A stretch of DNA of 64,000 nt from Acidaminococcus intestini DSM 21505 (GTDB lineage Bacteria; Bacillota; Negativicutes; Acidaminococcales; Acidaminococcaceae), in contig NZ_AULA01000001.1 in the NCBI RefSeq assembly GCF_000425045.1, positions 1 through 64,000 of the forward strand. Direction: 5' to 3'. The notes beneath the pieces are model-generated. The model did no database searches. It was not told the origin of the DNA and saw only the letters and a list, made by a program, of their open reading frames with translations. How positions within the stretch are numbered: the stretch's first letter is position 1; every line of letters starts with the position of its first letter. The position numbers were made by a program, and so were the translations under genes. Positions 1 through 19,611 of this stretch are shown piece after piece.

Positions 1-298
1 TGTATTTACGAACCCATTGGTACAAAAGACTATAGCTCATACCATATTGACAGGCGACAGCCATCATTGACTGTCCGGCATTTACTTGTGAAACCAATTC
101 AAGTTTCTCCTCTGGGGACCATGCCTTGTAATGTGCTTTGTGACACAATGCTCCCGGTCCGCCAGCCTGTTCGATACGATTCCAAGTACGAATCTTGTTA
201 CGAAAATTTGCTGTTTTAATTCCTTTAGGTGTTTTTACCCACTTACCTTGACGATAAAGTTCTACACACATCAGCTTAAATTCAGTCGTATAACGCAA
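1..298 (-). CDS. IS3-family transposase OrfA, N-terminal part (runs off window)
   Basis: The minus strand encodes at least 99 codons from a TTG at 298, read through the window edge. An AAGGAGG ribosome-binding site lies 7 nt before the TTG. The protein starts MRYTTEFKLMCVELYRQGKW and has two helix-turn-helix-like segments, the second ending in AVACQYGMSYSLLYQWVRKY. This is the layout of the DNA-binding OrfA of IS3/IS150-type elements, which is normally joined to a DDE integrase OrfB by programmed frameshifting. OrfB would lie left of the window. The base composition is more AT-rich than in the neighbouring genes, as expected of a mobile element. The family assignment is by pattern only, so the exact IS group is unknown. 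Confidence 0.75.
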   Translation of the reverse strand, partial: MRYTTEFKLMCVELYRQGKWVKTPKGIKTANFRNKIRTWNRIEQAGGPGALCHKAHYKAWSPEEKLELVSQVNAGQSMMAVACQYGMSYSLLYQWVRKY

Positions 299-300
299 AA

Positions 301-338
301 TGTACCCTCCTTACTGGGTGTCCAGTAAAGAGGGTACA
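301..338. repeat. inverted repeat at the IS terminus
   Basis: The arms TGTACCCTCCTTACTGG and CCAGTAAAGAGGGTACA are 17 bp long with one mismatch and are separated by GTGT. The outer arm is the presumed IS end, while the inner arm contains the OrfA Shine-Dalgarno sequence. In RNA this hairpin would hide the ribosome-binding site, a known way for IS elements to escape activation by read-through transcripts; that role is inference here. Confidence 0.6.
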
Positions 339-363
339 TTTCATTTTTTTTCACGGTCTTTTT

Positions 364-2001
364 TTATTTCATTTGATCATATCCAGGGACCAAATAATCG
401 GTCAGGTACCCCACCTTGAATTTTCGGGGGTCGTCTTCCCGCAGCAGTTCATTCTGGGTGAGGACGATATCCAGCGCCTGCGGAGTGAAACGGGCTGTAC
501 CGCTCATGTGCATGATGATGATGGAACCCTTGCGGACCCTTTGCCGAGGCGTATAGATTCCTGCCTTGATGGCCCCCACCAATTGGGAAAGGCTGTGGGC
601 GGCATAATCCTCGGTACTTTCATAGCCAGAGACCAAATAGGTATAGCCTGTGTTGAAAAGCGCCTTGGCTCCGTTCTCGCTTATGGCAAGGGTGGGCGGA
701 CGAAAAAGACGGGAAAGGCTATAGCGGCCGCCGACCTTGACATCCCCTACGGTTTCTGCCAATTTTCGATAGGCCTCAGCCACATTTTCCGCATAGGCTG
801 CTGGATCTTGGGATTCTACGATTTTTCCCTTTTTATCCCGAAAGGCCATGGCGGCATGAAGGTCCGTATGGCTTCCAATGGTATGCCCTTCCTCTGCAAT
901 GGCCCGTAATAGATTCGGATTGCTCGGCATGTAGCGCGTAATGATGAAAAAGGTGGCCGGCACCTTATGTTTGCGAAGGACATAAAGCAGCTGATTGATG
1001 GTATTGTCCGTCCCCCAATCATCAAAGGTCAGGAAAATGGTCCTTTCAGGAGCCGTCTTGATGACGCCGCTTTTATCGGCTTTGCGGATCACATCCTGAT
1101 CGAGGCCGTACATCCGGTCCTTATCGTCAACTTGCGGCGCGCCGATATAGTGGGACAAAAAGACCTTGGAAAAATTATGCTGGTCCACAGGGTAAGCAAT
1201 GGTTCCCGGCTGGAGGGCCTCGGGAATCCGCTCCTTAGGAACGGGATAGGTCCAGCGCTTTGCCGTATCGCGGAGAACATCGCTGACGGAAAGGACTTCG
1301 TAGGACGAATCGTTCCGGGGATTTGCTTCCGGTTGGTCCTGGAAGGTTCGGTATGTATTGACGTCGACCTTTTCCTTATGGATCCTTGTCATGACTTTGC
1401 CGATAAGGGTGGGATCCGAAAGAAAATCCAGACGGAAATAGAGAATCTGTCCCCGTCCCAAGGAAAAGTCCCATTTTTTGAAGACAGCGTTCATGATTTC
1501 ATCCGTTGACATGGCGTCTTTGAGCCGGGTCAGGACCACATTGCGTGTCTGTCCCACCAAGGTGAGGTTCATTTCACGAGCGACGTCCTCAACAATGGCT
1601 GAGGAAGGGCCATACATTTGCCGCACCACGGTCGGTGTCACGCCATATTCTTTTTGAAGACGCGTCCTTATGCGCTCCAGCTGCCCTTTGACCGCGTCCC
1701 GTGTAGGAGCGTCCCCAGGGCGCAGACCTATGCCAATTTCCTGGCCATGGTTCTTGATGAGGCGAATGGTTCCTTGATTTTCCCGCAGTTCACGCTCCGT
1801 CACAAAGAAGGTGCCCCGCAGCTTTTCTTCATCCATTCGCTGGAGTACATCGGCTACGGTTTGGGCGTTTTGCAGACCGCCAAAGGTAAAGATGACGGCC
1901 TGTTTGGTTGTTGGAATGATGGTTAGTGCCTTTCCGGCTTCGCTTAGGGAAGAAAAGCCAACGCACAGACAGAAAAGGTACAGCAAGATGAGTTTCTTCA
2001 C
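364..2001 (-). CDS. secreted polysaccharide deacetylase with tandem NodB domains
   Basis: 545 aa with a signal peptide (about residues 1-22), so it acts outside the inner membrane. Two NodB-like domains are visible. The first (about 33-220) is degenerate: it keeps FTFGG and GTFFVT but has no Asp pair or HxxxH. The second (about 318-520) has TFDDWG (325-330), the metal motif SHTDLH (377-382), RLFRPP (431-436) and IIIMHMSG near 495. These are the catalytic signatures of carbohydrate esterase family 4, so only the C-terminal half is predicted to deacetylate. The GTG start at 2001 follows AAGGAG by 6 nt and lies 3 nt after the stop of the upstream gene. It is the last gene of the exopolysaccharide cluster. 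The substrate is presumably the polymer made by the PilZ-GT2 synthase (inference). Confidence 0.8.
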   Translation of the reverse strand: MKKLILLYLFCLCVGFSSLSEAGKALTIIPTTKQAVIFTFGGLQNAQTVADVLQRMDEEKLRGTFFVTERELRENQGTIRLIKNHGQEIGIGLRPGDAPTRDAVKGQLERIRTRLQKEYGVTPTVVRQMYGPSSAIVEDVAREMNLTLVGQTRNVVLTRLKDAMSTDEIMNAVFKKWDFSLGRGQILYFRLDFLSDPTLIGKVMTRIHKEKVDVNTYRTFQDQPEANPRNDSSYEVLSVSDVLRDTAKRWTYPVPKERIPEALQPGTIAYPVDQHNFSKVFLSHYIGAPQVDDKDRMYGLDQDVIRKADKSGVIKTAPERTIFLTFDDWGTDNTINQLLYVLRKHKVPATFFIITRYMPSNPNLLRAIAEEGHTIGSHTDLHAAMAFRDKKGKIVESQDPAAYAENVAEAYRKLAETVGDVKVGGRYSLSRLFRPPTLAISENGAKALFNTGYTYLVSGYESTEDYAAHSLSQLVGAIKAGIYTPRQRVRKGSIIIMHMSGTARFTPQALDIVLTQNELLREDDPRKFKVGYLTDYLVPGYDQMK

Positions 2002-2004
2002 GGT

Positions 2005-3030
2005 TTACTCCTTCCCTCCTTCCCCTGTACGGGAAGCAAGCTGTGAAAGATTGCCGCTGCCCCCGAGGGACCAGAGGAACACGTGGGGATAGCCAGCTTC
2101 CAGGGCCGCTTGGCTCCAGGCTTCAAGGGTCGTAACGTCAGCATACCAAACAGTCATGGTGTGTCCATCGGCTTCATAGGAAAAATGGAGGGCCGCGCTG
2201 GCTTCATCCCGCTGGGGAACCTTTCCATATTGTTCAGCAAGGGCCGCTGCCGCCTGTTCAGAAAGGAAACGGCCTTCTTTTCCGTCCTTCCAGATTGCGC
2301 CACCCATTGAAAAGGCAAGGGCGGCCTCCCCCCTGAGGGCATCCATCTTCTTCATCGTTCTGCGAATAAAGGCCAGATCGGCCTTGGGGCCGGGGCCATT
2401 ATGGGGACCATGGAGGTTATAGGCCATGACGACATATTCAATGTTCTTCGGGAAAGGGGCACCAAATGGCGCCGACGGTTCCAGGATGACGCGGACCTTG
2501 AGATGGCGCCGTGCAGCCTGCGTTTCCAGTTCAGAAAGAAAACGCAGGAAGTGTTCCTGAAGACGGGTATCGCCCTTTTTCCAAAGGGTTTCATAGTCGA
2601 TTTCGACGCCTGAAAAGCCGTGCTTTTCCGCAAGATCAAGAATGGATACAGCATGCTTTTTGCGGCTCTTTCCGGTTGCAAGAAGGCTGGCTAATTGTTC
2701 CGTATCCTTTAAGCGGCTCGTTCCATCTGGGAAAACCACATCATTGACAATGGTAAGATAGGCCCCGTCTGCAGAAATCGCTGGTTTTTGGAACCTTTCA
2801 GGGAAAACCAATTCCTTTCGGTCATTAAAATACGCGGCAAAATATGAAATGTCCTGGAGGCGGTCCTGAAGGACCTGGGCTTCTTTTTCCCCTTCTGCCC
2901 GGTTCCAATAGGGAATCCATGCCGAAAGGGACAAGTGAGCACTCATGCCTTCCCGGGTGGGACCTACTAGACTCAAAAAGACCATGAAGACCAGAAAGAA
3001 AGCCCAGCGGTGTCGATGAAAAGTGATCAT
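2005..3030 (-). CDS. GH18-like glycoside hydrolase, exported
   Basis: The protein has an N-terminal hydrophobic signal or anchor, then LSLSAWIPYWN, the motif GFSGVEIDYE (a variant of the GH18 DxxDxDxE active-site strand ending in the catalytic Glu) and YVVMAYNLHG, a late-barrel strand motif of GH18 and YdhD/CotE-like proteins. I use the ATG at 3030 rather than the TTG at 3075 because it puts the basic n-region directly before the hydrophobic stretch; the Shine-Dalgarno match (AAAGGGG, 13 nt upstream) is imperfect. About 341 aa. It lies between two NodB-type genes in one transcription unit, recalling PgaB and PelA, where a deacetylase and a hydrolase are paired to process the exported polymer. 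It probably trims the polysaccharide in the periplasm. The linkage it cleaves is unknown. Confidence 0.72.
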   Translation of the reverse strand: MITFHRHRWAFFLVFMVFLSLVGPTREGMSAHLSLSAWIPYWNRAEGEKEAQVLQDRLQDISYFAAYFNDRKELVFPERFQKPAISADGAYLTIVNDVVFPDGTSRLKDTEQLASLLATGKSRKKHAVSILDLAEKHGFSGVEIDYETLWKKGDTRLQEHFLRFLSELETQAARRHLKVRVILEPSAPFGAPFPKNIEYVVMAYNLHGPHNGPGPKADLAFIRRTMKKMDALRGEAALAFSMGGAIWKDGKEGRFLSEQAAAALAEQYGKVPQRDEASAALHFSYEADGHTMTVWYADVTTLEAWSQAALEAGYPHVFLWSLGGSGNLSQLASRTGEGGKE

Positions 3031-3053
3031 AGGGCAGTAAATTCCCCTTTCTT

Positions 3054-4937
3054 TTAGATATAACGAAGGAACCAATTCAAGATGTCTTCCCAGTATTGCC
3101 CGGCTTCATACCGGAACCGGTCAAGGCCAGACAGCTTAAGAGAATAAAGGACCTGCTCCTTTTCGGGATCAAGGCCCGTTTGGGAATGGATAACAAGGTC
3201 TTCAAAAGTCGCGTCATACACACTTTCAGCCTGGTTCTTTTGGCTCCAGCTTTCATTTTTCCCCATGTCCGCCCCCAAAAATAGACAACCCGGATCAAGG
3301 ATCAGGACGGATAGCGGATCAAGGGCTTTCCCATCGAGGGTGATGAGCAGCTGATCATCCTGAAGGGAAAGGGTGAGGCTGTGGCTTTCCCGGGCATTTC
3401 GTTCCAGCTTCGGTTCATAGGGAGCAGCCCCCTCCTTGACAGAACGGGCTGGTTTCGCCTTTCGTGCCGCTGCTTTTTGGGCATACCGCTCAGCAGCCTG
3501 TCTAGTCGGGGCATAACGGGCAAGTGTCTCATAGTCCTTGACTTCCGCTTCCTTCTGAGCTTCTTCAACAGAAAGACGGGGCCTATCAAGGAGCACATCC
3601 ACATTTTCCTGCAGGAGCGGTGTATCTTTCCCATGGCGCCGTTCCGTGACGATGAGCCTGCCGCCGCTTAGTTCCACGATAAGGCATCGTGAAAGGTCTT
3701 CACTTGCCCGCAGGAACAGCTGCTGACGGCCAAAGGTGTTGCCCGTAAGACGAACGGATAAGCTGAAATTTTGATACGCTTTGCTGCCCAATAGTTCGGT
3801 CAGCCCAATGCCATAGGGAGCCGTCGTAAGGATAAGGGAATTGCCCGTGATTTCCGAGGCGCCAGAATAGCGTTTCCACGCTTTTTGGCGCTTTTCGTCA
3901 CCTTCTTCAAAGGGAATCTTCCCCATGCTTTTCGTATCGGCGGCAACGCGCATCAAAAGGTGATTGACAGGCCATTTTGTACCCGGTTCCAGGCGGGTCA
4001 GGTCGTAAGGGCTGCTGTTATGGGCATTGAATGAACTGCCTTCCCGATTGAAATTGATGGTAAAGAGCCGGCGGATCCACTTTTCATTGACCGCGCTCAC
4101 ATCGTCCTGGTTGCCAAATTGGGTGGTGTTGGCATGCATGAGGGCGTAGGCTTCCGGGACAAATCCTAATTCTCGCTGGTACGTATCGCGAAGGTTCATA
4201 TAATCAAAATCGATCCGCCGCACCATATGCTGGTAGCTTTCCCTTGCATAGCCATCCTTATCGCGGAGATAATCCATGAGGTAATGATTGTAATTGCGTC
4301 CCAGGCTGGAACGCAGCATGGAAAACTGCAGCGGCGTCAGCTCGCCCAGATAATTGTGGTAGCGGTCAAAGACGTTGATGAAGTGCAGCCGGTACCCATC
4401 ACTTCCCATATCCCAGAAGGACGAATCCATGAGGGACTGCATGTCCCGCTTGCTAAGGAACTTGGGATCCTTGGATTCCAGTTTTTCCGCATAGGAAAAC
4501 ATGGTGGCATGGAAATTATATTTTTCCAAGCTCTTTTGGGCAAAAATAGCCGTATCCCGGCGCCCATCCTCAAACATCAAATACAAAGCCCGCGGCGGAA
4601 GGCGTTTTCCTTCATGATAATAGGCGGCCACGTCTTTACTGGTGACTGTGACATAGCCGGCTTTCCGAAGGGCCGCCAAATGGTCATTTAAAAGAGGTTC
4701 CCCAATAAGGTCCGAGGTTCGCCCCGTCCGGTCAACGCCGCCATAGGAAAGGGCAATGAATCCCGTATTGAGAGTGGAACTTTCCTCATCCTCAGCATAG
4801 GGCGTATAGGATTTAAGGAAAAAGAAGGCATAAAAGATCCCCAATAAGACCAAAAGGAGGATAATAAACTGGATCAGGACACGCCGTTTCTTGCGGCGGT
4901 CCTTGAGCACCGTATAGGCATGATCTCCAAGGCTCAT
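3054..4937 (-). CDS. membrane-anchored NodB-like protein with C-terminal beta-sandwich-like region
   Basis: 627 aa. A basic N-terminus (KDRRKKRR) is followed by one transmembrane segment (about 20-42), placing the rest in the periplasm. The first half looks like a NodB fold: LYLMFEDGRRDT replaces TFDDG and WDMGSDGYRLH replaces the HxxxH region, so several metal ligands appear substituted. The second half (about 360-600) resembles a LamG/concanavalin-type domain (SLSVRLTG, QLFLRASEDLSRC, SLTLSLQDDQLLITLDG) interrupted by an Ala/Lys/Arg-rich stretch. The ATG overlaps the synthase stop as ATGA, indicating translational coupling to the PilZ-GT2 gene, so a partnership at the export site is likely. 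PgaB-like chaperone or deacetylase work is possible; I cannot name the family. Confidence 0.65.
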   Translation of the reverse strand: MSLGDHAYTVLKDRRKKRRVLIQFIILLLVLLGIFYAFFFLKSYTPYAEDEESSTLNTGFIALSYGGVDRTGRTSDLIGEPLLNDHLAALRKAGYVTVTSKDVAAYYHEGKRLPPRALYLMFEDGRRDTAIFAQKSLEKYNFHATMFSYAEKLESKDPKFLSKRDMQSLMDSSFWDMGSDGYRLHFINVFDRYHNYLGELTPLQFSMLRSSLGRNYNHYLMDYLRDKDGYARESYQHMVRRIDFDYMNLRDTYQRELGFVPEAYALMHANTTQFGNQDDVSAVNEKWIRRLFTINFNREGSSFNAHNSSPYDLTRLEPGTKWPVNHLLMRVAADTKSMGKIPFEEGDEKRQKAWKRYSGASEITGNSLILTTAPYGIGLTELLGSKAYQNFSLSVRLTGNTFGRQQLFLRASEDLSRCLIVELSGGRLIVTERRHGKDTPLLQENVDVLLDRPRLSVEEAQKEAEVKDYETLARYAPTRQAAERYAQKAAARKAKPARSVKEGAAPYEPKLERNARESHSLTLSLQDDQLLITLDGKALDPLSVLILDPGCLFLGADMGKNESWSQKNQAESVYDATFEDLVIHSQTGLDPEKEQVLYSLKLSGLDRFRYEAGQYWEDILNWFLRYI

Positions 4938-6736
4938 GGCTTCATCTTCCCTCCTTTTTGGGGTCCTACGTCAGCAGGTGTGGGACGGGTCCCCCAATTG
5001 GATTTCCAGAAGGTGAACCAAGCCACGGGCATCTGCCAGAGCAGGACCAGCTCGTAATAGATACAGAACCACAGACCATAAATCCAGGTTGTACTCCGCC
5101 GCAAAAAAAGCTGGGCAAGACTCATCAGGGCCGCCATCAGGAACATCCCGACAAAAAAGCCCAAGGGGACAATTCGGTACATGATGGGGACATAGAAGAC
5201 ATTATAGAGCACAATGATGGGAGCAATAATGGGAACCAAAAATCCCATATAGAAGAAAATGGCGGCAAACGGTTCCTTTTTCCACATATAACGAGCCGCA
5301 ATCAGGGATTCCCGCAGCCAGGACCGTTTCCAGCGCATCTGCTGCCGGAGGAACATGCGGTGGGTATTGGGGACAATGGTGGAACAGATAGCCGTATCCT
5401 GATAAGTTGTGCGATGTCCGCGGAGAATAAAGTTCGTCATGCTCCGGTCGTCCCCAAAGGTCGCTTTCTGTCCCAGGAACGTCTGGTGCAACCACGCCTC
5501 CTTATGGGCAAGGACAAGATCCTTGCGATAGCACGAAAGCGGTCCTGACAGGCAGGTCACGGCATCAAAGTAGCCTTCCGCCGCTTTCATGATGCGAAAG
5601 GCAATATAATAGCGGACAGACTGCATCTTGGTCAGGGAATTGGTATAGGTATTGGCCACGTCAGTCCTACCCGAAACGCCGCCCATCTTTTCGTCCTTGA
5701 AGGGTTGGACAAGATTCCTGACGGCATAAGGGTCAAGAAAGGAGTCTGAATCCACAAAGACGAGGAGGGGCTTTGTGGAAAGCTCAGCTCCGCGGGCCAT
5801 GGCTTCCCTCTTGCCCATATTCTGAGGCTGACGGATCCAGCGGATCCGCTGGTCCGTGTGGAAAAGCTGATCTGATGCGGTCAGGGAATCAATGGTCTTT
5901 TGGATCACTTCACAGGAATGGTCCGTGGAATGATCATCGACAACGATGACTTCCAGCTGCTCAGGAGGATAATCTTGGTTGATGGCGCAAAGGATGGTCC
6001 GATCGATCCACGTCTCTTCGTTAAAACAAGGAATGATGATGGTGACCCCCGGCGTAAAATCGGGATCCACCTTCATAGGCCGGTAGAGCGCGCCAAAAAG
6101 GTAGCGTGATAACAGCAGGGTAGCGGCAATGATGCTATATAAATAAAGAGTCTTGTTGAACCGGAAATAAAGGACCGATTCAGCCCGCATCATGATGATG
6201 ACAAAGACAACCACAAAAAGGAAAAACGAAGCAAGCCCCAGCATATAGCGGCCGCGTTTTTTATTGGCAAACTCGGCAAGCGTGTCCGCAAACTGCACGC
6301 CAATAAAAAGGCCCTCCGCATTCTCTTTATGGAACGATCTAACAACCGTGGCCCCTAGGTCCTTGATTTTCATTTCGTATCCTTCAGGCAGGGTTCCCGG
6401 GGTTATTTCAAAAGAAAGGGAAAGCGTTGTTCCTTCAGTCAGCAAGGATTCGTCACAGCCTAGCTCGGCATGAAGAAGCATGCCCGTTGTTGAGATGTCA
6501 AGGGCCCGTGCCTTGATACGGTCCTTTTCTACACGGACGGTAACTTCATAATCCACGAGATAGCGCCGTCCCGCAGCATCTTCCCTGATATAGGCACCAA
6601 AATCCTCAGGGCCCCGTCCGCCGCCGTTTCCTCTGCGGCGGTCCCGATGGCTGCGCACGCCCGATGCATCCGGCACATGGGATAACAATCGACGGTCTTT
6701 TTTCTCCCTCGTGAGGACATCACAATGTTCTTTCAC
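4934..6736 (-). CDS. PilZ-domain family 2 glycosyltransferase (polysaccharide synthase)
   Basis: The start is the GTG at 6736, 7 nt after AGGAG; the longer frame from 6790 would run into the upstream gene and lacks a site. 600 aa. In order: an Arg/Gly-rich N-terminus; a PilZ-like domain (about 55-160) with DISTTGM as the DxSxxG motif; two membrane segments (about 165-220); a GT2 catalytic domain with IPCFNEE, VVDDHSTD, VDSDS, GDDR and QQMRW (about 230-470), the set of a processive beta-glycan synthase such as BcsA or PgaC; then about four C-terminal membrane segments. The canonical PilZ RxxxR appears as RRYLVD, so the second Arg is missing at the expected place. It is the core enzyme of the cluster, polymerising a nucleotide sugar at the inner membrane, probably under c-di-GMP control. 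Confidence 0.85.
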   Translation of the reverse strand: MKEHCDVLTREKKDRRLLSHVPDASGVRSHRDRRRGNGGGRGPEDFGAYIREDAAGRRYLVDYEVTVRVEKDRIKARALDISTTGMLLHAELGCDESLLTEGTTLSLSFEITPGTLPEGYEMKIKDLGATVVRSFHKENAEGLFIGVQFADTLAEFANKKRGRYMLGLASFFLFVVVFVIIMMRAESVLYFRFNKTLYLYSIIAATLLLSRYLFGALYRPMKVDPDFTPGVTIIIPCFNEETWIDRTILCAINQDYPPEQLEVIVVDDHSTDHSCEVIQKTIDSLTASDQLFHTDQRIRWIRQPQNMGKREAMARGAELSTKPLLVFVDSDSFLDPYAVRNLVQPFKDEKMGGVSGRTDVANTYTNSLTKMQSVRYYIAFRIMKAAEGYFDAVTCLSGPLSCYRKDLVLAHKEAWLHQTFLGQKATFGDDRSMTNFILRGHRTTYQDTAICSTIVPNTHRMFLRQQMRWKRSWLRESLIAARYMWKKEPFAAIFFYMGFLVPIIAPIIVLYNVFYVPIMYRIVPLGFFVGMFLMAALMSLAQLFLRRSTTWIYGLWFCIYYELVLLWQMPVAWFTFWKSNWGTRPTPADVGPQKGGKMKP

Positions 6737-6746
6737 AATCCTTCTC

Positions 6747-7634
6747 CTACAATCCAACAATCTTAAGGCCCCGCTGTTGAAGGGACTCAATCAAGACCTC
6801 TACTTTTTCCGCTAAACTGGCCCCGTCCGAAGCCGCTTTTTCGGGACGGTCCTTGACTGTGGGCGGGTGCTCGATGGGCCCATTTTTCCCGGTTTGGACC
6901 TTGGGCTTTTTAGGTCCGCCCACGACGGGAACGCCGCTTTCCACGGCAAGGATGCTCCCCCCACCCACGCCAAGGGCAAATGTTTTGACGTTGTCTTTGG
7001 TTGCCATCTGACTGGGGTAAAACAGGAGGGGTGTATCTACATATACGGGAAGACCAGCCGCGGCTGTCCTTACCAGAAGGTCGGCCGTAACCTTCGTTCT
7101 TGGGGCCCGCATATATTGCGGAGCTGACCCGGTAAGATCCGTTAGGGCCGTCTGGGCAGCCACAGCTTCCGCCATAAACTTAGCAAGCGGCAGGGTCTCT
7201 GCCTGGGCCTGTCCATGGAAGGTAAAGTTTCCCAGCAAATGACCTTCTCCTTTGATCTTGCGCACAAGCTCCTTGTCCATGGCCGCATTTTCCCCTTCTA
7301 CAAAGAACAAGGCCTTCACCTGATGGCTGCGAAGAACCGCAAGAAGCCGCTCGGTATCCGTCTTGGAGGGCAGTCCATCAAAAACAAGGAGTACCGAAGA
7401 AGAGTCAGGACGAGCAAGGAGACGGGCCGGTCCAATGCCCTGTTGATAGCGTTCAACCGCCTTTTTGACGGCGTCTTCCGAAGCCTCGTAGGAAGCAGCC
7501 GGTTCAGCCATGAACCGCGTGATGTCCCGGGCATTGAGGTCTTTTACCATTCCCTTGATGACATACATTCCGCCCCCAAGGAAAAGACAAAAGACAAGGC
7601 CCAGTCCCACTTTTAGTTTGGTTTCACTTTTCAT
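6747..7634 (-). CDS. NodB-fold protein, probably catalytically degenerate
   Basis: 295 aa from the ATG at 7634, preceded by AAGGAAG at 5 nt. It has an N-terminal membrane segment (about 8-28), then a deacetylase-like fold with the right strand order but broken motifs: VLLVFDGLPS for TFDDGP, GHLLGNFTFHG for the HxxxH segment, and MRAP for the RPP motif. No complete metal triad is visible, so I expect a structural or regulatory role rather than catalysis. A Pro/Lys-rich linker (about 235-265) separates a short C-terminal helix. It lies between the UDP-sugar dehydrogenase and the synthase genes, with 10-12 nt gaps. It could be a PgaD- or Alg44-like accessory factor, but sequence alone does not show this. 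Confidence 0.6.
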   Translation of the reverse strand: MKSETKLKVGLGLVFCLFLGGGMYVIKGMVKDLNARDITRFMAEPAASYEASEDAVKKAVERYQQGIGPARLLARPDSSSVLLVFDGLPSKTDTERLLAVLRSHQVKALFFVEGENAAMDKELVRKIKGEGHLLGNFTFHGQAQAETLPLAKFMAEAVAAQTALTDLTGSAPQYMRAPRTKVTADLLVRTAAAGLPVYVDTPLLFYPSQMATKDNVKTFALGVGGGSILAVESGVPVVGGPKKPKVQTGKNGPIEHPPTVKDRPEKAASDGASLAEKVEVLIESLQQRGLKIVGL

Positions 7635-7646
7635 GGGCACTTCCTT

Positions 7647-8978
7647 TTATAGACTCCAGTAAAGAAATCCTTTTTCTTCAAAAGCTTTCCGTTCAAACAT
7701 GCCCTTGACGTCAATGAGGACCTGTTTCTGTCCTGGTTTTGGCCGGCGGAACAAGCTTGCCGCCTCGTCGATCTGCAGCTTTCGGAAGACTTCATGCTGG
7801 ACCAAAAAAACAATGCAGTCCGCATCATGAACAGCTTCCAAGGGCGTCAGTTCGAGCCCATAAAGACGGCTGACTTCTTCTTTATCGGCACAGGGATCGA
7901 CCATTTTGGGAGAAAGGCCGCACTTGCGGAATTCCTCATAAACATCGTAGGACCGGGAATTTCGGACATCAGGGCAGTCTTCCTTGAAGGTCATGCCAAA
8001 AAGGAAAAGATTGGCCCTGCAGATATCGATCTTGGCCTGCAGAAGCCGGGTCAGGACCTGGCGCACCACAAAACTTGACATGCCATTGTTGATGCGGCGT
8101 CCGGCGGAAACAACCTGGGAATGATAGCCCAAAGTTTCGGCCTGGTAGACAAAATAGTAGGGATCGATGCCGATGCAGTGTCCCCCTACAAGACCGGGAT
8201 AAAAACCCAGAGCATTCCATTTGGTATTCATGGCCTTGATGACTTCCTTGGTCTCAATGCCCATTTGGCTAAAGACCATGGCAAATTCATTCACGAGGGC
8301 AATATTGATATCCCGCTGGGAATTTTCGACCAGTTTGGCGGCTTCGGCGACCTTAATGGTGGGAGCGCGATAGATTCCAGCTTCAATGATGGATCCATAG
8401 ACGTCAGCCACTGCATCCAACGTTTCCCCGTCCATTCCGGAGACAATCTTGACAATGTTGAAAAGCCGGTGCTGGCGGTCGCCCGGATTGATGCGTTCCG
8501 GTGAATAGCCAATCTTAAAATCAGGCCCGCAGGCAAATCCGCTTTCTCGCTCCAGGATAGGACGGCAGATATCTTCTGTCACGCCGGGATAGACAGTTGA
8601 TTCATAAACGACGATACTGCCCCGGGAAAGATGGCGGGCCACAAGGGCCGTTGCCTCTTTGACCGCCGTCAGGTCCGGTGTATTGTCCCCATTGAGTGGG
8701 GTTGGGACAGCGATGACAAAAAAACGCGCATCTTTCAGCGCTTCTTCCTGGGCCGTAAACTGGCAGTCCGTTTCCTTAAGGGCTGCGTCCCCTGCCTCCC
8801 CTGTCACGTCAACGCCCGCCTTGTAGCGGGCCACCTTTTTTTCATTGGTGTCAAAACCGATGACGTCATAGTGTTTGGCAAATTGGACAGCCAGCGGCAG
8901 CCCCACATAACCCAATCCGACGACAGCCAGTTTTGATTTTCTGGCGGTCAGATCGCTGCATAGATCAATAGCATTCAT
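7647..8978 (-). CDS. UDP-N-acetylhexosamine 6-dehydrogenase (WbpO/TviB type)
   Basis: 443 aa, full length for the UDP-glucose/GDP-mannose dehydrogenase family. The N-terminal Rossmann motif GLGYVGLPLA, the substrate segment VENSQRDINIALVNE, and GGHCIGIDPYY with the catalytic Cys are all present. The overall pattern (EGVD-type linker, NSRSYDVYEEF) is closest to the WbpO/TviB/VipA group, which oxidises UDP-GlcNAc or UDP-GalNAc to the uronic acid, rather than to UDP-glucose dehydrogenases. It supplies an acidic sugar nucleotide in the cytoplasm, so the polymer probably contains an N-acetylhexosaminuronic acid (inference). It sits within the cluster between the outer-membrane protein and the NodB-like gene. 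Substrate choice cannot be read from motifs. Confidence 0.85.
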   Translation of the reverse strand: MNAIDLCSDLTARKSKLAVVGLGYVGLPLAVQFAKHYDVIGFDTNEKKVARYKAGVDVTGEAGDAALKETDCQFTAQEEALKDARFFVIAVPTPLNGDNTPDLTAVKEATALVARHLSRGSIVVYESTVYPGVTEDICRPILERESGFACGPDFKIGYSPERINPGDRQHRLFNIVKIVSGMDGETLDAVADVYGSIIEAGIYRAPTIKVAEAAKLVENSQRDINIALVNEFAMVFSQMGIETKEVIKAMNTKWNALGFYPGLVGGHCIGIDPYYFVYQAETLGYHSQVVSAGRRINNGMSSFVVRQVLTRLLQAKIDICRANLFLFGMTFKEDCPDVRNSRSYDVYEEFRKCGLSPKMVDPCADKEEVSRLYGLELTPLEAVHDADCIVFLVQHEVFRKLQIDEAASLFRRPKPGQKQVLIDVKGMFERKAFEEKGFLYWSL

Positions 8979-9030
8979 CCTTATTTCCTCTTTTTCCTTT
9001 CACTTTGACAGACAAGGCCGCCAAAGACAT

Positions 9031-10710
9031 TCATTTCGTTCCTTCCGTCTTATCCTGATCTTCAGGTTCCTCATTCCCGTAATTCTTGAAATAGTAGGAA
9101 AGGCCTGCCCAGAGGGTGCGGCTGCGCGTCCCGTACTGAAGGTCTTCCAAATCATCGTACTCAAGGCTCAGGACCCAGTCGCGGGTCAGCGTGTAGGACA
9201 GACCCAGTCCATAGCCCTTGAAGCCATGCATATAATCAGCCACCCCATTCATGGTATGTTCCACGTAAGTTGCCCGCGGCTGGTAGTAATACTTGGCATA
9301 GGTATAGAGGTTGCCCTTTTCCCAGCTGTTTTCCTCGCCGCGGCTCAAGGAAAAGACACCGCCGCTGCCGCCGGGCTCTGTTTCATCGTGTCCCAAAAGA
9401 TACTGGGCTCCCACACGCCACCAGCCACCAAGAGGCATCTCATAACCAAGCATGCCGATGTTCCGGTTGTTGCCCCCATCCATGCGGAACCCGTAGGCCC
9501 CTAAAGAGAGTTTGTGCTCTCCTTTTTGGTAAATGGCAGTAAGTGCCGTAACTTCATCGGCCTCATTGACCTTGCCGAAAGCCCCTTCGTAGTACCAGGG
9601 ATGATGATCGCCATAGGCGACTTGTATGCCCTTGAACCGGCTGTCATAGATATTTCCCTCTGCCAAGGTCTTACCGAAAGCACCGGCCATGACCATGACT
9701 TTTCCGACAGCCCCTTTCAGGTAGTACCGATCAAGATCAATGGTCCCGTTCATGCTGTCATCGCCATGGAGGGCCTTCTCGCTTTCAAGCATCCCGATAG
9801 CATGCCAGTTATTATCCAGGTTGTAATCCATGTAGATCCTGGCGCGCAGCCGCAGCCGGTCATCAGGGAACTGGATCCGCTTCCGTTCCGGATCGACGGC
9901 ATGATGGTTGGACGTATCATTGTTATCAATCCGAAGTTCCCCATCAATCTTGAATCTTTTGGATAGATCGACGGCCGGTTCCGGCGTTTCAAGGACGGCG
10001 AGGTCCTGAGCGCGTTTTTCCTCATAATAGCCAAGGTCTGCCAGTTCTTCGGCATATTCAGCCTGTTTGCGGGATAGGTCCGTCAAGGTTTCCGTCGGGG
10101 CGGACGGGGCTTCTGCCAAATTTTTCCCTTCTTTCAAGATTGCCGCGTCAGTTGATGCAGGAGGAAGAACTCCCAAAGGCGCTTTTTTTGGCGACACAAG
10201 GCCTGCCATTTCATCCAGCACCCCATCCCTTCTTGCCGTCAAGGCTGCAAGTTGGCTTCTTGCCGGCTCGAGCCTTCTTTTGATGAGAGCAAGACGGACG
10301 CTGGCATCTGTAAGGATTTTTTCCCGATGCGAAGCTTCTTTTTCAAGGGGGGCCATCACTGCTTCATCGCCGCTTTGAAGGGACGCGTAGATCTTCTTTT
10401 TTTCCGTCTCTTCAAGCGCTTGCTGAGCTTTTTCATAGGCTGAATAGGCTCGTTTGTATTCCTTTTCAAGGACGCTTACCATGGCCGCTTCCCGGGCCGT
10501 AAGGCGCGACAGTTCAGAAAAGGCTGCCAGCTGTTTTTTCACCGCTTCCTGACGGGTCGGGGCATCCGCCTGAGAAAGGGCCAGTCCCACTTGCCGTGCC
10601 GTCTCTTTTCGAGTCGGTTCAGCTTCGGCAGCACGGGGCATCGCAAAAGGGAGGCTTAGGAGCACAATCCCCCAAAGGATTTTAGGATAATCAATTCGAT
10701 ATAACCTCAC
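9031..10710 (-). CDS. outer-membrane beta-barrel protein with periplasmic coiled coil (candidate exopolysaccharide porin)
   Basis: 559 aa with a GTG start at 10710, one base after the upstream stop, and AAGGA 7 nt ahead. It has a signal peptide (about 1-30), then a charged helical region (about 33-240) rich in Ala, Glu, Lys and Arg with coiled-coil character, then a region of alternating aromatic strands (from RFKIDGELRIDNN, about 250, to LWAGLSYYFKNYG, about 540) typical of a porin barrel. The barrel does not end in a C-terminal Phe; an acidic tail follows. Genes of this build are common in diderm Firmicutes. Within a synthase cluster it is a plausible counterpart of PgaA, AlgE or BcsC, but I see no TPR repeats. 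Polymer export is inference from context. Confidence 0.7.
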   Translation of the reverse strand: MRLYRIDYPKILWGIVLLSLPFAMPRAAEAEPTRKETARQVGLALSQADAPTRQEAVKKQLAAFSELSRLTAREAAMVSVLEKEYKRAYSAYEKAQQALEETEKKKIYASLQSGDEAVMAPLEKEASHREKILTDASVRLALIKRRLEPARSQLAALTARRDGVLDEMAGLVSPKKAPLGVLPPASTDAAILKEGKNLAEAPSAPTETLTDLSRKQAEYAEELADLGYYEEKRAQDLAVLETPEPAVDLSKRFKIDGELRIDNNDTSNHHAVDPERKRIQFPDDRLRLRARIYMDYNLDNNWHAIGMLESEKALHGDDSMNGTIDLDRYYLKGAVGKVMVMAGAFGKTLAEGNIYDSRFKGIQVAYGDHHPWYYEGAFGKVNEADEVTALTAIYQKGEHKLSLGAYGFRMDGGNNRNIGMLGYEMPLGGWWRVGAQYLLGHDETEPGGSGGVFSLSRGEENSWEKGNLYTYAKYYYQPRATYVEHTMNGVADYMHGFKGYGLGLSYTLTRDWVLSLEYDDLEDLQYGTRSRTLWAGLSYYFKNYGNEEPEDQDKTEGTK

Positions 10711-10711
10711 G

Positions 10712-13700
10712 TTAATTTCCTTCCGTGGTCACTAGGTATCCATAGGTAAGATCCTTCATTTTCTTACGTTTTTTCTTATCTTCGTACATCCGCTGATCAG
10801 CAAGTTCCTGCAGGGCATCCATGTCCTCTGTTTCCGAATAGCGGGCAATGCCCACGGATATTCCACCCAGATAGGACCTACCGTCAATGGACAGGGGCGC
10901 TTTGAGGGACTGCTGGATTTCCTGCTTGATCCGGCGGATGTCTTCGGATCCAACAATAGGCAGGAGGGCAATGAACTCATCGCCTCCCACACGGGCAACG
11001 ACCCCATAATGGTTAAAGATCTTCTGCAAACGTTTGACCCCTTCCTGAAGGACCATATCGCCAAACCCATGACCATAGGCATCATTGCAGTGTTTAAAAT
11101 CATCCAGGTCCATATAGATCAAGATGAAGTCAAGGTCCCACTTTTGATAATTATCCACAAAATGGGACTGTGTTTCCTTGAACCCTTGGTAGTTCAATGC
11201 GCCTGTCAAGGCATCTATAACGCTTTTTTTCTTGAGTTCTGCCTGGATCTGGGTGAAACGGGTCACATCGCGGAACCAAGAAAGACTGCCGACAATTCGT
11301 CCGCCTTCAATGAGGGGAATCTTGTTCATCATGACCGTGCGGATCATACCTTTGGCCATGCAGTGGACCTTTTCCTCCGAAATGACCGGAATCTGCCCAA
11401 GGAGCATTTCCTCTTCCCGGTAGGTGGGGTCAAATTCTACATTCCAGCCCAGTTCCTCTTCCGACTGACCGAGGATATCATCCAGGGAAGAAAGATTGAA
11501 ATAATGCAAAAAAGCATCATTGGCCCCCAGGAAGCGGCCCCTGACATCTTTCCAGTACACGTTCATTTCCGGTAAATGGAGCATGGCTTCCCAGAGGACC
11601 TCTGGCAAAATGGCATCCATCTTATCCAGCTGGGGAGATGGGACCAGCTTGTTTCGCGCCAAAATAGGTTCCATGGGACGAGGCATCTGGACCCCCATGA
11701 AATGGCGCAGGTTGACCGTTCCGCAATAGACCTTGACATCAGAAGGCTCCCCTGAGAGCCAGACCAAATGGAGCTGCCAGCCATTGCGATTTTCCTGTTC
11801 ACTGCTCGTGACCCTAAAAAAAGTGGAAAGATAGCCACATCCTGATTCATTGATGCGAGTGACCAAAGTGGCTAAATCATAAAACTGCAGAAAGCGCTTC
11901 CAATCTTCCGAGAAAACGTGCCGCCTTGCCCATTCCCGCAAAAACAAAGGCAGGGGCAGCCGCTCGATTTCATCGATCACGCTCATTCCCACCTTGATCC
12001 GATGGACGGTCTGGGTTGTCAGGTTAAGGGCAAAGAAGCTGTCAAAAAGGGAAAAAATCCCATTCATGATGCTCTGGACAGCCGCCTTTCGATCCTTGAA
12101 AGCCGACGTGCGGACACCGGTCAGGATGATGAGAAAAGCTTCCGCTCCATTTGACTCATTTTGGGCAATAGGGTCAATGCGCAGGGTACAGACTTCATTA
12201 TGACTGAGGACCTCAATGGTGATGCCCATTTGCGTATCCTGACACTGCTTAATGGCCTGCAGAAGGTTCCTACGGTAAAAAGTCCCTGCCTGTCCCATAT
12301 ATTCATTGAAAGCCGCGGAATCACGAAATGCCAGCTGCCCTTCCCGCGCCGTAAAGGCCGCGTTCGTTTCAAGAAGGCTCAGCTTCCCCGCCTGATATTC
12401 GACGATGCAGGCAGGCAGGGAGGGAAGGACCAGCCGTTCGTCCTTGCCATGGGAAACCGGTTCCGGCATGGCCTGCACCATGTTGCAGCAGCCTACGGCA
12501 TTGTAATACCGGCAATTGGATGCCGTTTCATCCGTATCCCAGATGGCAAGATCCAGCAGTTGGGCAAACGGGATGGGCCGGCTGTAGAGATATCCCTGCA
12601 TCCGTTCACAGCCCACGCTTTGGAGATACTCCAACTGCGCTTCGGTTTCAACCCCTTCTACAAGAGTCTTCATCCCCAGCTGCTTGACCATGGCAATGAG
12701 GGCCCCGATGATGAAGTTTCCCCGGTTGATATGGGCACTGCCCACAAGAAAGCGCAAGTCAAACTTGACCAGATCCACATCCAGATCCTTGAGGAGACTC
12801 AAAGAGGAAAAACCGCTTCCAAAATCATCCATCCAGACTTCATAGCCATGATCCCGCAGATCCTTGATCTGGTCCTTGAGGACTGATACATCATCACAGA
12901 AATCACGTTCCGTAACCTCCACGCACAGAGCATGGTCCGGCACGTGATATTCTGCTCGGAGCCGGTCGAGCTCCCTGCGGATCTCACAATTCTGGAAATC
13001 ACTGCGGGAAAAATTGATGGAAATGGGCAAATTGACATCGGGCCGGAGCTGAAGGTCCTCATAAAGACGGCAGACTTCTTCGGCAACATAAAGATCCAAT
13101 TTGGTGATCAGCTGTGTAGCCTCAAGCGGTTTGATGAAGATAGAGGGCAGCAAATGGCCATACTGGGGGGCATCCCAACGAGCCAAGGCTTCTGCCGCAC
13201 AGGCCTTACAGGTCAAGGTCCGGATAATGGGCTGGAAGAAAACCTTAATATCGTGGTTTTTCAGGGCCTCTTCCAAATGGGTCACCACATAGTGATCAAT
13301 GGCCAAATGTTTTTGAAGGTCTTCGTCATATTCCCGGTAAACCGCCTGATAGTCCTTTTTGATATGGGCACAGGCTGCTTTGGCATAATCCGAAGCGGTA
13401 ATGGGGCTGATCTGGGGATTGGAAACAATGAATATGCCTGCCTTTAAGTCAAGCTGATTGTTGCTGCGCAGGGAAAGCGCCTTCTTATGGAGATGGATCA
13501 GCCGCTCCCGCACATCCGGGACCCCGGTCACAACCGCAAACTGTATGGAGGCACCGCGCGTAATCAGGGCATCGGGAAAGGTCTGATGGATCAGGGCAGA
13601 CACTTCCGTGAGCAAATGGGCCCCTTCACTGATATCCCCCTGCATATTGATGAATCGAAAATTTTCAAGATCAAGGAAAATGTAGCAGGCCTTCTTCCCC

Positions 13701-13816
13701 TGCTGGAGAAGTTCCTTTTGGAGCTGTTCGGCCTGCATCCAGAAATCACTGGTACTGTCCAGACGATTTCCCTGCGCTTCCTTTAATTTGGCAATGTCGT
13801 ATGCTTGAACATTCAT
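10712..13816 (-). CDS. hybrid c-di-GMP enzyme: degenerate GGDEF - EAL - PAS - GGDEF
   Basis: 1034 aa, no signal or membrane segment, so cytoplasmic. An N-terminal GGDEF fold (about 40-165) has GASIQF where GGDEF should be and is inactive by motif. The EAL domain (about 185-440) keeps AEALARW, INFSRSDF, VEVTERDF, DDFGSGFSS, VKFDLRF and VEGVETEAQ, so c-di-GMP hydrolysis is expected. Sensor-like segments follow; the one at about 730-860 (VYWKDVRGRFLGANDAFLHYF) is a clear PAS domain. The C-terminal GGDEF (RVGGDEF near 944-948) is intact and has no RxxD inhibition site five residues upstream. Both synthesis and breakdown are therefore possible. It lies 34 nt after the stop of the other GGDEF gene and 1 nt before the outer-membrane protein gene, which argues for local control of the polysaccharide synthase. 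Confidence 0.88.
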   Translation of the reverse strand: MNVQAYDIAKLKEAQGNRLDSTSDFWMQAEQLQKELLQQGKKACYIFLDLENFRFINMQGDISEGAHLLTEVSALIHQTFPDALITRGASIQFAVVTGVPDVRERLIHLHKKALSLRSNNQLDLKAGIFIVSNPQISPITASDYAKAACAHIKKDYQAVYREYDEDLQKHLAIDHYVVTHLEEALKNHDIKVFFQPIIRTLTCKACAAEALARWDAPQYGHLLPSIFIKPLEATQLITKLDLYVAEEVCRLYEDLQLRPDVNLPISINFSRSDFQNCEIRRELDRLRAEYHVPDHALCVEVTERDFCDDVSVLKDQIKDLRDHGYEVWMDDFGSGFSSLSLLKDLDVDLVKFDLRFLVGSAHINRGNFIIGALIAMVKQLGMKTLVEGVETEAQLEYLQSVGCERMQGYLYSRPIPFAQLLDLAIWDTDETASNCRYYNAVGCCNMVQAMPEPVSHGKDERLVLPSLPACIVEYQAGKLSLLETNAAFTAREGQLAFRDSAAFNEYMGQAGTFYRRNLLQAIKQCQDTQMGITIEVLSHNEVCTLRIDPIAQNESNGAEAFLIILTGVRTSAFKDRKAAVQSIMNGIFSLFDSFFALNLTTQTVHRIKVGMSVIDEIERLPLPLFLREWARRHVFSEDWKRFLQFYDLATLVTRINESGCGYLSTFFRVTSSEQENRNGWQLHLVWLSGEPSDVKVYCGTVNLRHFMGVQMPRPMEPILARNKLVPSPQLDKMDAILPEVLWEAMLHLPEMNVYWKDVRGRFLGANDAFLHYFNLSSLDDILGQSEEELGWNVEFDPTYREEEMLLGQIPVISEEKVHCMAKGMIRTVMMNKIPLIEGGRIVGSLSWFRDVTRFTQIQAELKKKSVIDALTGALNYQGFKETQSHFVDNYQKWDLDFILIYMDLDDFKHCNDAYGHGFGDMVLQEGVKRLQKIFNHYGVVARVGGDEFIALLPIVGSEDIRRIKQEIQQSLKAPLSIDGRSYLGGISVGIARYSETEDMDALQELADQRMYEDKKKRKKMKDLTYGYLVTTEGN

Positions 13817-13850
13817 AGGAACACCTTCTTCTTCAAAGACACGGCACTTA

Positions 13851-15140
13851 CTATTTCTGGCCGAGGGGCATCATGACGAGGGTCCCATAATAAGGAGACG
13901 TCATCTTCATGGAAATCAACATCTCTTCCTGGAGAAACTGGCTCTTGATGCGAAAGGTTACATTTTCCTTTTCATTGGCCATTTTATGGATATACGCCCA
14001 CAGGGGCTGATCCGGAGCCTTGAGCAGCGGCATGATGGAACGATTGGTCCAGCGTTCAGGACGCATGTTAAAAAGGTCGGCAAAGGCCTGGTTCACGACC
14101 TTGATGCGAATGTTTTTAATTGCCCCCACGCTATCACGTTCCACGGCGAAGACAAAAAATGGCGAAGGCACGGTATCGCAGTTGATGCGAAGGGACAGTT
14201 CCTCCGCGCTGTTTTGATGGTATACGGGGGCCTCCTGTCCCATTTTTTCATAGAATGCCCTTTTCTCCTCGTACATACGGCGGTCGGCTTTTTCTTTCAA
14301 GACGGAAAAATCCATCGAAAACTGCGGAACCCATACAACGCCCACGGCAAGATTGATGCACCGGGACGCCATGAGCATACGGATTTCCCTGACCTTTTCC
14401 AGAAAGGACGCTTCCTTGATGCCATCATCGAGAATGATGAATTCATCCCCACCAACGCGAAACACCTGCTTTTTATCAAAGACCTGGATCAAGGTCCCCG
14501 TAACCCGGGTCAAAAGGTCATTGCCCGCCTCATGGCCATAATTATCATTGATCTTCTTAAGCCCCGAAACATCAGCAAAAATGACACCCAAGCTTGTTTC
14601 ATCCGATAAATGGTCGAGGGCGGAAAGAAGCCGATTGAAATTGCCTACCCCGGTCAAGGGATCTGTATAACCGAGAACCTGGAGCCGTTCAATGAGCTTC
14701 CAATTGTAAAGAAGGGTCGAGACAAAAAAACCAAGCAGCCGAACCGATTGTGAACTGTCATGGTGCGGCTTATCCGGGTCCTTATCAAACCCGATGATGC
14801 CAATGATGTTGCCATGACGCTTCAAAGGGGCCGCATAGGCCTTTTCCGTCTCTACGACCTCTTGTGTCCAAATATGGGGAAAACGGGCTTCAATCTGGGA
14901 GGCCGTGAAGACTTGATGCATTTCCCGCTCTGAAACAGCGGAAACCTTCCATTCATAGGTCATAATAAAACTGTCAGGACCAATCTTTTCCAAAATATAG
15001 ACCCGTTTTCCATCAAGATGCTGACTGAATTGGGTCATCAAGTTTTGGAAGGATTCCTCCGGACTGTTTCCATCATCATAGAAGGGATCCTGATTGATAC
15101 TGACGCCATAAGGTGACCATATGTGGTTTTGTGAAGCCAT
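13851..15140 (-). CDS. diguanylate cyclase with N-terminal GAF-like and C-terminal PAS-like regions
   Basis: 429 aa, soluble. The N-terminal part (about 25-150) resembles a GAF sensor (KAYAAPLKRHGNIIGIIGFD). The middle is a complete GGDEF domain: DPLTGVGNFNR, FADVSGLKKINDNYGHEAGND and RVGGDEF (230-234). The inhibitory RxxD site is not present upstream. The C-terminal part (about 320-425) looks like a PAS fold (VNQAFADLFNMRPERW). The GGDEF domain is central rather than terminal, which is uncommon. It is the first gene of the exopolysaccharide transcription unit, 106 nt downstream of a good promoter, and is predicted to make c-di-GMP for the PilZ-GT2 synthase. The sensed signal is unknown. Confidence 0.85.
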   Translation of the reverse strand: MASQNHIWSPYGVSINQDPFYDDGNSPEESFQNLMTQFSQHLDGKRVYILEKIGPDSFIMTYEWKVSAVSEREMHQVFTASQIEARFPHIWTQEVVETEKAYAAPLKRHGNIIGIIGFDKDPDKPHHDSSQSVRLLGFFVSTLLYNWKLIERLQVLGYTDPLTGVGNFNRLLSALDHLSDETSLGVIFADVSGLKKINDNYGHEAGNDLLTRVTGTLIQVFDKKQVFRVGGDEFIILDDGIKEASFLEKVREIRMLMASRCINLAVGVVWVPQFSMDFSVLKEKADRRMYEEKRAFYEKMGQEAPVYHQNSAEELSLRINCDTVPSPFFVFAVERDSVGAIKNIRIKVVNQAFADLFNMRPERWTNRSIMPLLKAPDQPLWAYIHKMANEKENVTFRIKSQFLQEEMLISMKMTSPYYGTLVMMPLGQK

Positions 15141-15611
15141 GATGCCGTTTTCCTCGCTTTCTCCCCCACAATGAGGGTAAATAACCTAATCAATTGCTGT
15201 TTGTTGCCAATATTTCCCGCTCATTTCCATTAAAAACAAGCAATATAGTCGTATTATACATGATGAAATATCCTTATGACAATAAGGCTCATCTAGACGC
15301 TGCCAAGATAATCCGTTCCATCACAGGTTACATTTATAATCATTATTAAGTGGAAATTTTTGATAAATACCAATTCTTATTGGCGGAATTTTTTCTGATT
15401 TGGGATGAAACGGACCCTTTCCCATATAATGGGGACCTCACTTGATAGAGTACAAAAAATAAGACTATTTTCTTGAAAATTCTTTATTAATAAATGTTCT
15501 ATGAAGACAGTCATTGTTTTTATCAAGAAATCATAAGGATGAAACAGATTGAAATTTTTCACAAAAATTTCACATTTTTCTTTCCCTATGGGGCTTTCCC
15601 CTAAGACACAG
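15141..15611. other. AT-rich intergenic region before the exopolysaccharide unit
   Basis: About 470 bases with no credible gene. It is much more AT-rich than its surroundings, especially 15240-15580. It contains the minus-strand promoter at 15253-15282 and a leader of about 106 nt in which I see no known riboswitch signature. The rest may hold upstream regulator sites, but I recognise no specific motif. Confidence 0.6.
15253..15282 (-). promoter_or_regulatory. sigma-70-type promoter for the exopolysaccharide/c-di-GMP unit
   Basis: On the minus strand a TTGTCA -35 box (15277-15282) and a perfect TATAAT -10 box (15253-15258) are spaced by 18 nt. Transcription would start near 15246, about 106 nt before the ATG at 15140. 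Confidence 0.65.
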
Positions 15612-15648
15612 AAAAAGGACGGGAAGAAAGGCATTCCCCGTCCTTTTT
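15612..15648 (-). terminator. intrinsic terminator after the hutW-like gene
   Basis: A 12-bp stem, AAAAAGGACGGG against CCCGTCCTTTTT, with U-rich flanks on both strands. It lies directly past the stop at 15655 and separates the haem operon from the exopolysaccharide promoter region. The symmetry makes it potentially bidirectional. Confidence 0.8.
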
Positions 15649-15654
15649 GATGCA

Positions 15655-17061
15655 TTATCCCTGTGCCGCAACCGGCGCATGGTTCATGATTTTTTCTCCT
15701 CCCAGAAGCCACTGGATACATTCCAGGAGGGTTTGGGTCATATTCACAACCCAAAATTCGCCTGCTTCCGTCAGGTCATATTGGATTCCATTAAAGTGCC
15801 ATAATCCGTATTCTTCCCACAGGTCTCCCAAGTGGGAGAGGCTCACAAGACGCGGATCAAGCGCCATGAGGGCATCGAGATTTAGATGGCACTGATTCAT
15901 CTCTCCTTGGACGCGGGCTTCATAGGCCGCAAAAGGGGAAACTTCAGAAAGGAACATAAAAGGTTTCACTCCCCTTGCCACCATACCTTCATAGGGCCCC
16001 AATACGCGGTGAAGCATGGTCGATACGCCGTCCACATGACCGCCGGCGCCGCAGCCAAAAGGAAACAGATGGGTTCCGCTGCGGGCAAGGGTATTGTACA
16101 GGCTCCGTTCCCGATTGTTTTTAGCCCAGTGGCAGTGGCTGATCCGCTTGCAGCCCCATTGGGCCATATAGCGTCTTCCTATACGGAACATCTCCGTCTG
16201 CATGAGGGTTGTGGCCGCCGGCGAAAGGCGACCTTCTTCGATGCGCTTATGAAGGTCGCTATTTTCAAAGACGTCAAGCTGGTAGAGGTCCGCCCCATCG
16301 ACACCGCTTTCCACAAGATGGTGCAGGTCTTCCTGCCACACGTCAAGGGTCTGGTCTGGCAGGCCATACATGAGGTCAATGATGACGGCGCACTGATTGT
16401 AGGCGCTGAGCTTCTGGAGCCGCTTCATGACTTCTTCTCCCGTATCGATGCGGCCCACTTGCTGACGAACCTTCGTGTCAAAGGACTGGACACCCAGGGA
16501 GATGCGGTTGACGCCTTCTTCCATCCAGACATCCATTTTTTCTTCCACAAGGTCATGGACGCGCCCTTCGAGGGTAAGTTCATAGTCGTTGGCAAGGGGC
16601 AGGGTCTTACGGATAGCGCGCAATAAACGCCGGATGTTGGAGGGAGATAGACTTGTCGGTGTGCCGCCGCCAATGAAGACGGACTGGATGGGCGCACTTT
16701 GAAGCCTCGGTTTATCGGCATCCTGAGCAAGTTCCATAAGGAGATGGTCCACATAACGATCCTCGACGGACATATCCGTCCCGTTTTGAAAGAAGCCGCA
16801 GTACAGGCATTTGGTCTTGCAGAAGGGGATGTGAAGATAGGCCATTTGCAGCGGATTTCCTTCTACGGGACGCTCCATGAGGGCATTCCAACGCGCCTGA
16901 GCCTTATCGGGCGGAATCATGCGCCCCTTGAGGCCGGCGTGGACAACACGCTTATGGCGGAAAGCCCCTTGCAAGGGATCTGCCGCCTTTTTACCAAACT
17001 GCAGGATCCGTTCCTCTTCCGGCAGGGCTGCTATATAAGCAGCTAGATCTTTGACCGTCAT
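15655..17061 (-). CDS. hutW: HutW/ChuW-type radical SAM enzyme (anaerobic haem degradation)
   Basis: 468 aa. It has a radical SAM cluster motif CxxxCxxC at Cys81, Cys85 and Cys88 within LHIPFCKTKCLYCGF, a SAM-binding GGGTPTSL, and the HemN-like fold. It belongs to the coproporphyrinogen-oxidase-related group, but the haem-uptake context and the long C-terminal domain fit HutW/ChuW/HmuW. ChuW is known to open haem without oxygen, yielding the linear tetrapyrrole anaerobilin and releasing iron. The gene follows the flavodoxin gene with a 4-base overlap; a flavodoxin partner is also encoded beside hmuW in Fusobacterium. It is the last gene of a TonB/ABC haem operon. True HemN is less likely given this context. 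Confidence 0.85.
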   Translation of the reverse strand: MTVKDLAAYIAALPEEERILQFGKKAADPLQGAFRHKRVVHAGLKGRMIPPDKAQARWNALMERPVEGNPLQMAYLHIPFCKTKCLYCGFFQNGTDMSVEDRYVDHLLMELAQDADKPRLQSAPIQSVFIGGGTPTSLSPSNIRRLLRAIRKTLPLANDYELTLEGRVHDLVEEKMDVWMEEGVNRISLGVQSFDTKVRQQVGRIDTGEEVMKRLQKLSAYNQCAVIIDLMYGLPDQTLDVWQEDLHHLVESGVDGADLYQLDVFENSDLHKRIEEGRLSPAATTLMQTEMFRIGRRYMAQWGCKRISHCHWAKNNRERSLYNTLARSGTHLFPFGCGAGGHVDGVSTMLHRVLGPYEGMVARGVKPFMFLSEVSPFAAYEARVQGEMNQCHLNLDALMALDPRLVSLSHLGDLWEEYGLWHFNGIQYDLTEAGEFWVVNMTQTLLECIQWLLGGEKIMNHAPVAAQG

Positions 17062-17597: not shown

Positions 17598-17614
17598 GGT
17601 AAAACTCCTTTTCA

Positions 17615-19574: not shown

Positions 19575-19611
19575 ATCTATAATTCAAAAATCCTTTCTCC
19601 TCAAGTATGTA

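Follow-up and report, generated by a model that had tools for sequence, protein, structure and literature searches.

PilZ receptors of c-di-GMP are generally called from two motifs, RxxxR and DxSxxG. Loss of one arginine of the RxxxR pair usually weakens binding by the PilZ domain. The closest described systems differ in how the sensor is connected to its enzyme. In the cellulose synthase BcsA (e.g. PDB 4P00), a processive membrane glycosyltransferase of family 2 (GT2) and a PilZ domain share one chain, with the PilZ domain at the C-terminus and R580/R584 as its arginine pair (PMC10374906). Alg44 has an N-terminal PilZ domain with an intact pair, R17/R21 (PMC12564702), and controls a glycosyltransferase, Alg8, that is a separate protein. 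In Leptospira YcgR, a GAF-like domain is inserted between RxxxR and DxSxxG and c-di-GMP binding is kept (PMC11800159). Sequence alone is no proof of c-di-GMP binding, because the PilZ domain of Romboutsia RiGT2, which is needed in its GT-fused form, has the full motif yet showed none (PMC10374906).

The window (the whole stretch of DNA that was analysed, 64,000 nucleotides) encodes a protein that combines these features in another way. All genes and protein features described here lie on the minus strand. An open reading frame of 600 codons (4934..6736) starts with GTG at 6736, is preceded on its 5' side by a well-spaced GGAG and contains no internal stop. A Pfam search of its product gave a PilZ match (E = 1.7e-6, which passes the Pfam cut-off) followed immediately by a GT2 match (E = 3e-28). 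This is a real gene, hereafter PilZ-GT2. We built an AlphaFold2 model of the protein from 75 aligned relatives (pLDDT 91.4, pTM 0.91) and compared it with known folds by Z score. The glycosyltransferase and membrane part is most similar to class I hyaluronan synthases (Chlorella virus HAS and Xenopus HAS1; Z about 32), which, unlike the window protein, have no PilZ domain in the aligned part of their structures, while R. sphaeroides BcsA reaches a Z of about 22. The catalytic domain (residues about 229-470; 5327..6052) displays DD, DSD, GDDR and QQMRW, i.e. the DD, DxD, GDD and QxxRW motifs, which together with the HAS-like membrane fold assign it to processive GT2 enzymes of the hyaluronan synthase type. 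With an identity to hyaluronan synthases of just 22-27%, hyaluronan itself, which those enzymes make from UDP-GlcA and UDP-GlcNAc, is no more than a possible product. The PilZ beta-barrel (residues 58-160; 6257..6565) precedes the enzyme, whereas in BcsA-type synthases it follows the last membrane helices.

The isolated N-terminal region has PilZ structures as its best fold matches, among them MotI, PP4397, BcsA, VCA0042, MrkH, Alg44 and YcgR (Z 9-11.4), most of which are known c-di-GMP binders. Fold comparison alone found these relatives; when PDB sequences were searched with the PilZ domain, both by itself and as a profile, no PilZ relative was returned. The initial annotation of this DNA, made from the sequence, had noted a DISTTG motif and a non-canonical RxxxR in a PilZ domain ahead of the GT2 synthase, and both observations were right. 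DISTTG (residues 80-85; 6482..6499) has the (D/N)xSxxG form of c-di-GMP-binding PilZ domains. The sequence RRYLVD begins at residue 57, and only R58 of the expected pair is in place before strand 1 (6563..6565). The position of the first arginine, residue 54, is occupied by alanine, and the first arginine appears to lie upstream, past an insert. Alignment with solved PilZ structures, proposed at that time as a check, places R58 on the second arginine of RxxxR, i.e. on BcsA R584 and Alg44 R21. This assignment was read gap-free from the first aligned residues of the fold alignment and presumes that no gap occurs within the first few of them. The protein resembles BcsA in its R58 counterpart, and differs from it by the displacement of the first arginine; it differs from Alg44 by its single chain and its split motif.

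Then, we counted conserved residues in 130 PilZ-bearing sequences. R58 is nearly invariant (128 sequences), whereas R57 and position 54 vary among relatives. S82 and G85 of the DxSxxG motif are kept in 130 and 128 sequences, respectively, and R133 in 127. The N-terminal arginine arm (residues 12-34, KKDRRLLSHVPDASGVRSHRDRR; 6635..6703) is just as constrained: D14 is found in 126 sequences, R15 and R16 in 128 each, R28 in 127 and R33/R34 in 111, so that its motif DRRxLxxVPDxxxxR matches DxSxxG in degree of conservation. By these counts, the arginine-rich N-terminus is a strictly conserved motif and not a random basic tail. PilZ-GT2 proteins were detected in 13 genomes of the window genome's family (this genome counted), in many named Firmicutes, in Desulfovibrio-type bacteria, in one planctomycete and in one Aminicenantes genome. 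The nearest named relative, with 76% identity, belongs to an Acidaminococcus genome. Some relatives (L009-L012) are longer at the C-terminus by about 250-300 residues, a stretch of low complexity with a likely coiled coil at its end. One contig labelled Acholeplasmataceae (L044) shares the N-terminus of the protein with a genome of the window's family (L005), which makes this metagenome label doubtful.

The spacing of the arginines differs between groups. The outgroup sequences from Desulfovibrionia and the planctomycete (16 sequences) read RR-x4-R, with an arginine pair four residues before R58, and the Aminicenantes protein reads RR-x3-R, with the pair three residues before R58, so that RRxxxR is complete. 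The Firmicutes proteins mostly have their last RR 17-27 residues before R58 (extremes 6 and 49), and the insert brings an additional conserved element, DRRG. In the window protein, spacing, tree and secondary structure delimit a stretch from R28 to R58 (6566..6652) containing an insert of about 24 residues, which splits the ancestral RR-x3/4-R and ends in a predicted helix (residues 46-56). Insertion near the PilZ motifs is thus a feature common to this protein and Leptospira YcgR, but there the insert comes after RxxxR and here it falls inside the arginine pair. In a tree built from the GT part only, the compact forms branch off at the base and the Firmicutes group on a single branch (SH-aLRT 100); this is a quick tree, with SH-aLRT support, no bootstrap and a root resting on long-branched rows. 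The motif states require three changes on it, two losses and a split of RxxxR that is placed once, in the Firmicutes line. Short-linker Paenibacillus proteins (6-14 residues) were considered as intermediates, but they are nested inside the Firmicutes and look like later shortenings. Homologues with the full RxxxR, from which the initial annotation would have concluded that this copy is just a variant, do exist among the outgroups, but they point to a split motif and not to a trivial variation.

The spacing from P22 to R28 (P22-x5-R) is constant with and without the insert in 102 out of 124 sequences. Because of this constancy, R28 appears to be the first arginine of the ancestral motif, with the insert following it. 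An alternative register, in which R33/R34 and not R28 would correspond to the outgroup RR, is disfavoured by the same spacing, although the register taken here is unproven. The relatives indicate that the missing first arginine has probably changed its position and is not lost, and the sensor most likely still works.

Two Firmicutes proteins that stand apart on the GT tree, from Sporosarcina (L090) and Clostridium bornimense (L092), have lost the motif. We examined the 158 near-invariant columns, defined by an invariance of 95% or more among the remaining 124 sequences. Seven of them are changed in both proteins, D14, R15, R16, R28, R58, G85 and R133, while none of the 144 GT columns is changed in both and the catalytic residues are intact. 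Since residues of the arm and of the PilZ site were lost together, the two probably act as one unit, and this joint loss is the strongest evidence for a function common to both. It was supposed that the motif-lost proteins come from genomes without c-di-GMP enzymes. This was wrong: GGDEF matches number 10 in the Sporosarcina genome and 7 in that of C. bornimense. As GGDEF proteins are kept, the loss is in the protein and not in the signal. One divergent copy from Paenibacillaceae (L177, genome G741) shows the reverse state in an automatic alignment, its arm and PilZ motif being kept and its GT catalytic residues looking degenerate.

The initial annotation had left two options, an arginine-rich N-terminal stretch supplying the contact to the dinucleotide or a PilZ domain with lost or changed binding. 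Its interpretation stands in part. The first option is well supported in outline by the conservation of the arm arginines in 127-128 of the 130 relatives, by the outgroup pair close to R58 and by the two lineages that lost the arm and the PilZ site together. The second finds no support for the window protein and seems to describe L090 and L092. We consider it likely, with a probability of about 0.7, that PilZ-GT2 is a c-di-GMP-controlled, hyaluronan-synthase-like synthase with a split RxxxR, in which the arm completes the c-di-GMP site and gates the glycosyltransferase. Motif conservation, the insertion, the joint loss and the self-contained cluster are seen in the sequences; ligand binding, arm contacts and gating are what we infer here. 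According to this model, the PilZ domain would have kept its fold, its DxSxxG and its second arginine, and the insertion would have shifted the first arginine upstream into the arm DRRxLxxVPDxxxxRxxxDRRG, which would fold back to complete the site. Without c-di-GMP, the arm would probably rest on the GT/membrane part and keep the enzyme off, a restraint resembling that of the PilZ arginine holding the gating loop of BcsA. The neighbouring cyclases would supply the c-di-GMP that then pulls the arm off the GT. The arm has a pLDDT of 90 in the full-length model versus about 62 in the isolated domain. Its good placement only in the presence of the GT part fits a resting arm-GT contact, and the contrast, which is indirect evidence, suggests that the modelled state has an arm-GT rather than an arm-PilZ contact. 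Extension of this scheme to the broad family is tentative and has somewhat less than an even chance of being correct: a single split in the Firmicutes line would have made the first arginine part of a movable arm at the N-terminus, a latch that alternates between the c-di-GMP-binding site and the GT.

The same placement of the arm would also be expected if c-di-GMP were bound through R58, DxSxxG and R133 alone and the arm served as a regulatory tether to the GT without ever contacting the ligand. The occurrence of DRRxLP in outgroups with a near-normal RR-x3/4-R is consistent with such a tether. However, the P22-x5-R spacing identifies R28 of the arm as the first arginine of the outgroup motif, and binding with a single arginine of the pair would be expected to be weakened. 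We therefore regard a tether as unlikely. An even less probable explanation is that the PilZ domain has no c-di-GMP binding and serves as a structural or protein-protein module. The absence of an arginine at the canonical first position and the precedent of the RiGT2 PilZ (PMC10374906) would agree with this. It would then be unexpected that R58, S82, G85 and the arm are so strictly conserved in different phyla and were lost jointly in just two lineages, as would the linkage to GGDEF and EAL genes. Finally, the altered geometry of the motif could reflect binding of another nucleotide or ligand through rearranged arginines. No computed result favours this explanation, and the adjacent GGDEF/EAL genes and the co-occurrence with GGDEF proteins point to c-di-GMP, which makes it highly improbable. 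Control by c-di-GMP through a split motif thus remains our preferred reading.

We also looked at the genes surrounding PilZ-GT2. They form a run from 15140 to 364, in which neighbouring genes overlap or are separated by at most about 50 bases, and a promoter-like site (15282-15253; a consensus match only) lies ahead of it. The run begins with a GGDEF protein whose GGDEF motif is intact (13851..15140) and an EAL-GGDEF protein (10712..13816), both detected by Pfam. In a whole-genome search, one PilZ, two GGDEF and one EAL were found, all within this run, and neither MshEN nor a c-di-GMP-I riboswitch was detected; in an Rfam search of window positions 1-20000, no family reached the threshold. Among the genomes of the family, GGDEF proteins are present in 13 out of 13 with PilZ-GT2 versus 16 out of 46 without (Fisher P = 1.7e-5, computed ignoring shared descent).

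Most of the other genes concern polysaccharides. A nucleotide-sugar dehydrogenase (TviB-like, NCBIfam; 7647..8978) occurs in 44 out of 69 loci, and polysaccharide deacetylase-domain proteins (Pfam) are encoded at 6747..7640 and, with locus comparison as additional evidence, at 364..2001. Directly 3' of PilZ-GT2 and overlapping it, a PgaB-like partner (3054..4937; weak NCBIfam PgaB match) is present in 66 of the 69 loci, and a GH18-family protein (2005..3075; Pfam) in 58. Most loci retain the order PilZ-GT2, PgaB-like, GH18. These neighbour genes would be compatible with a hexosamine polymer that is deacetylated or bears uronic acid. The recognised GGDEF, EAL and PilZ genes and the exopolysaccharide pathway in one same-strand run make a self-contained signalling circuit, and in this genome the cluster looks like an entire c-di-GMP circuit that has one recognisable receptor.

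In a literature search of partial coverage, neither an insert within the arginine pair nor a family with an N-terminal PilZ-GT2 arrangement of this type was found described. Motif-based calling would class a PilZ domain with such a split motif as non-binding, and many c-di-GMP-controlled synthases of Firmicutes and Negativicutes could be missed in this way. With its split, compact and motif-lost forms, the family offers natural material for testing how PilZ domains gate GT2 enzymes. Two further observations concern the cluster. The PgaB-like protein has MFEDG in place of the FDDG-type deacetylase motif and may be catalytically altered. A putative outer-membrane barrel protein (9031..10710; no family match), which accompanies the cluster only in Negativicutes loci (8 loci), is a possible export pore.
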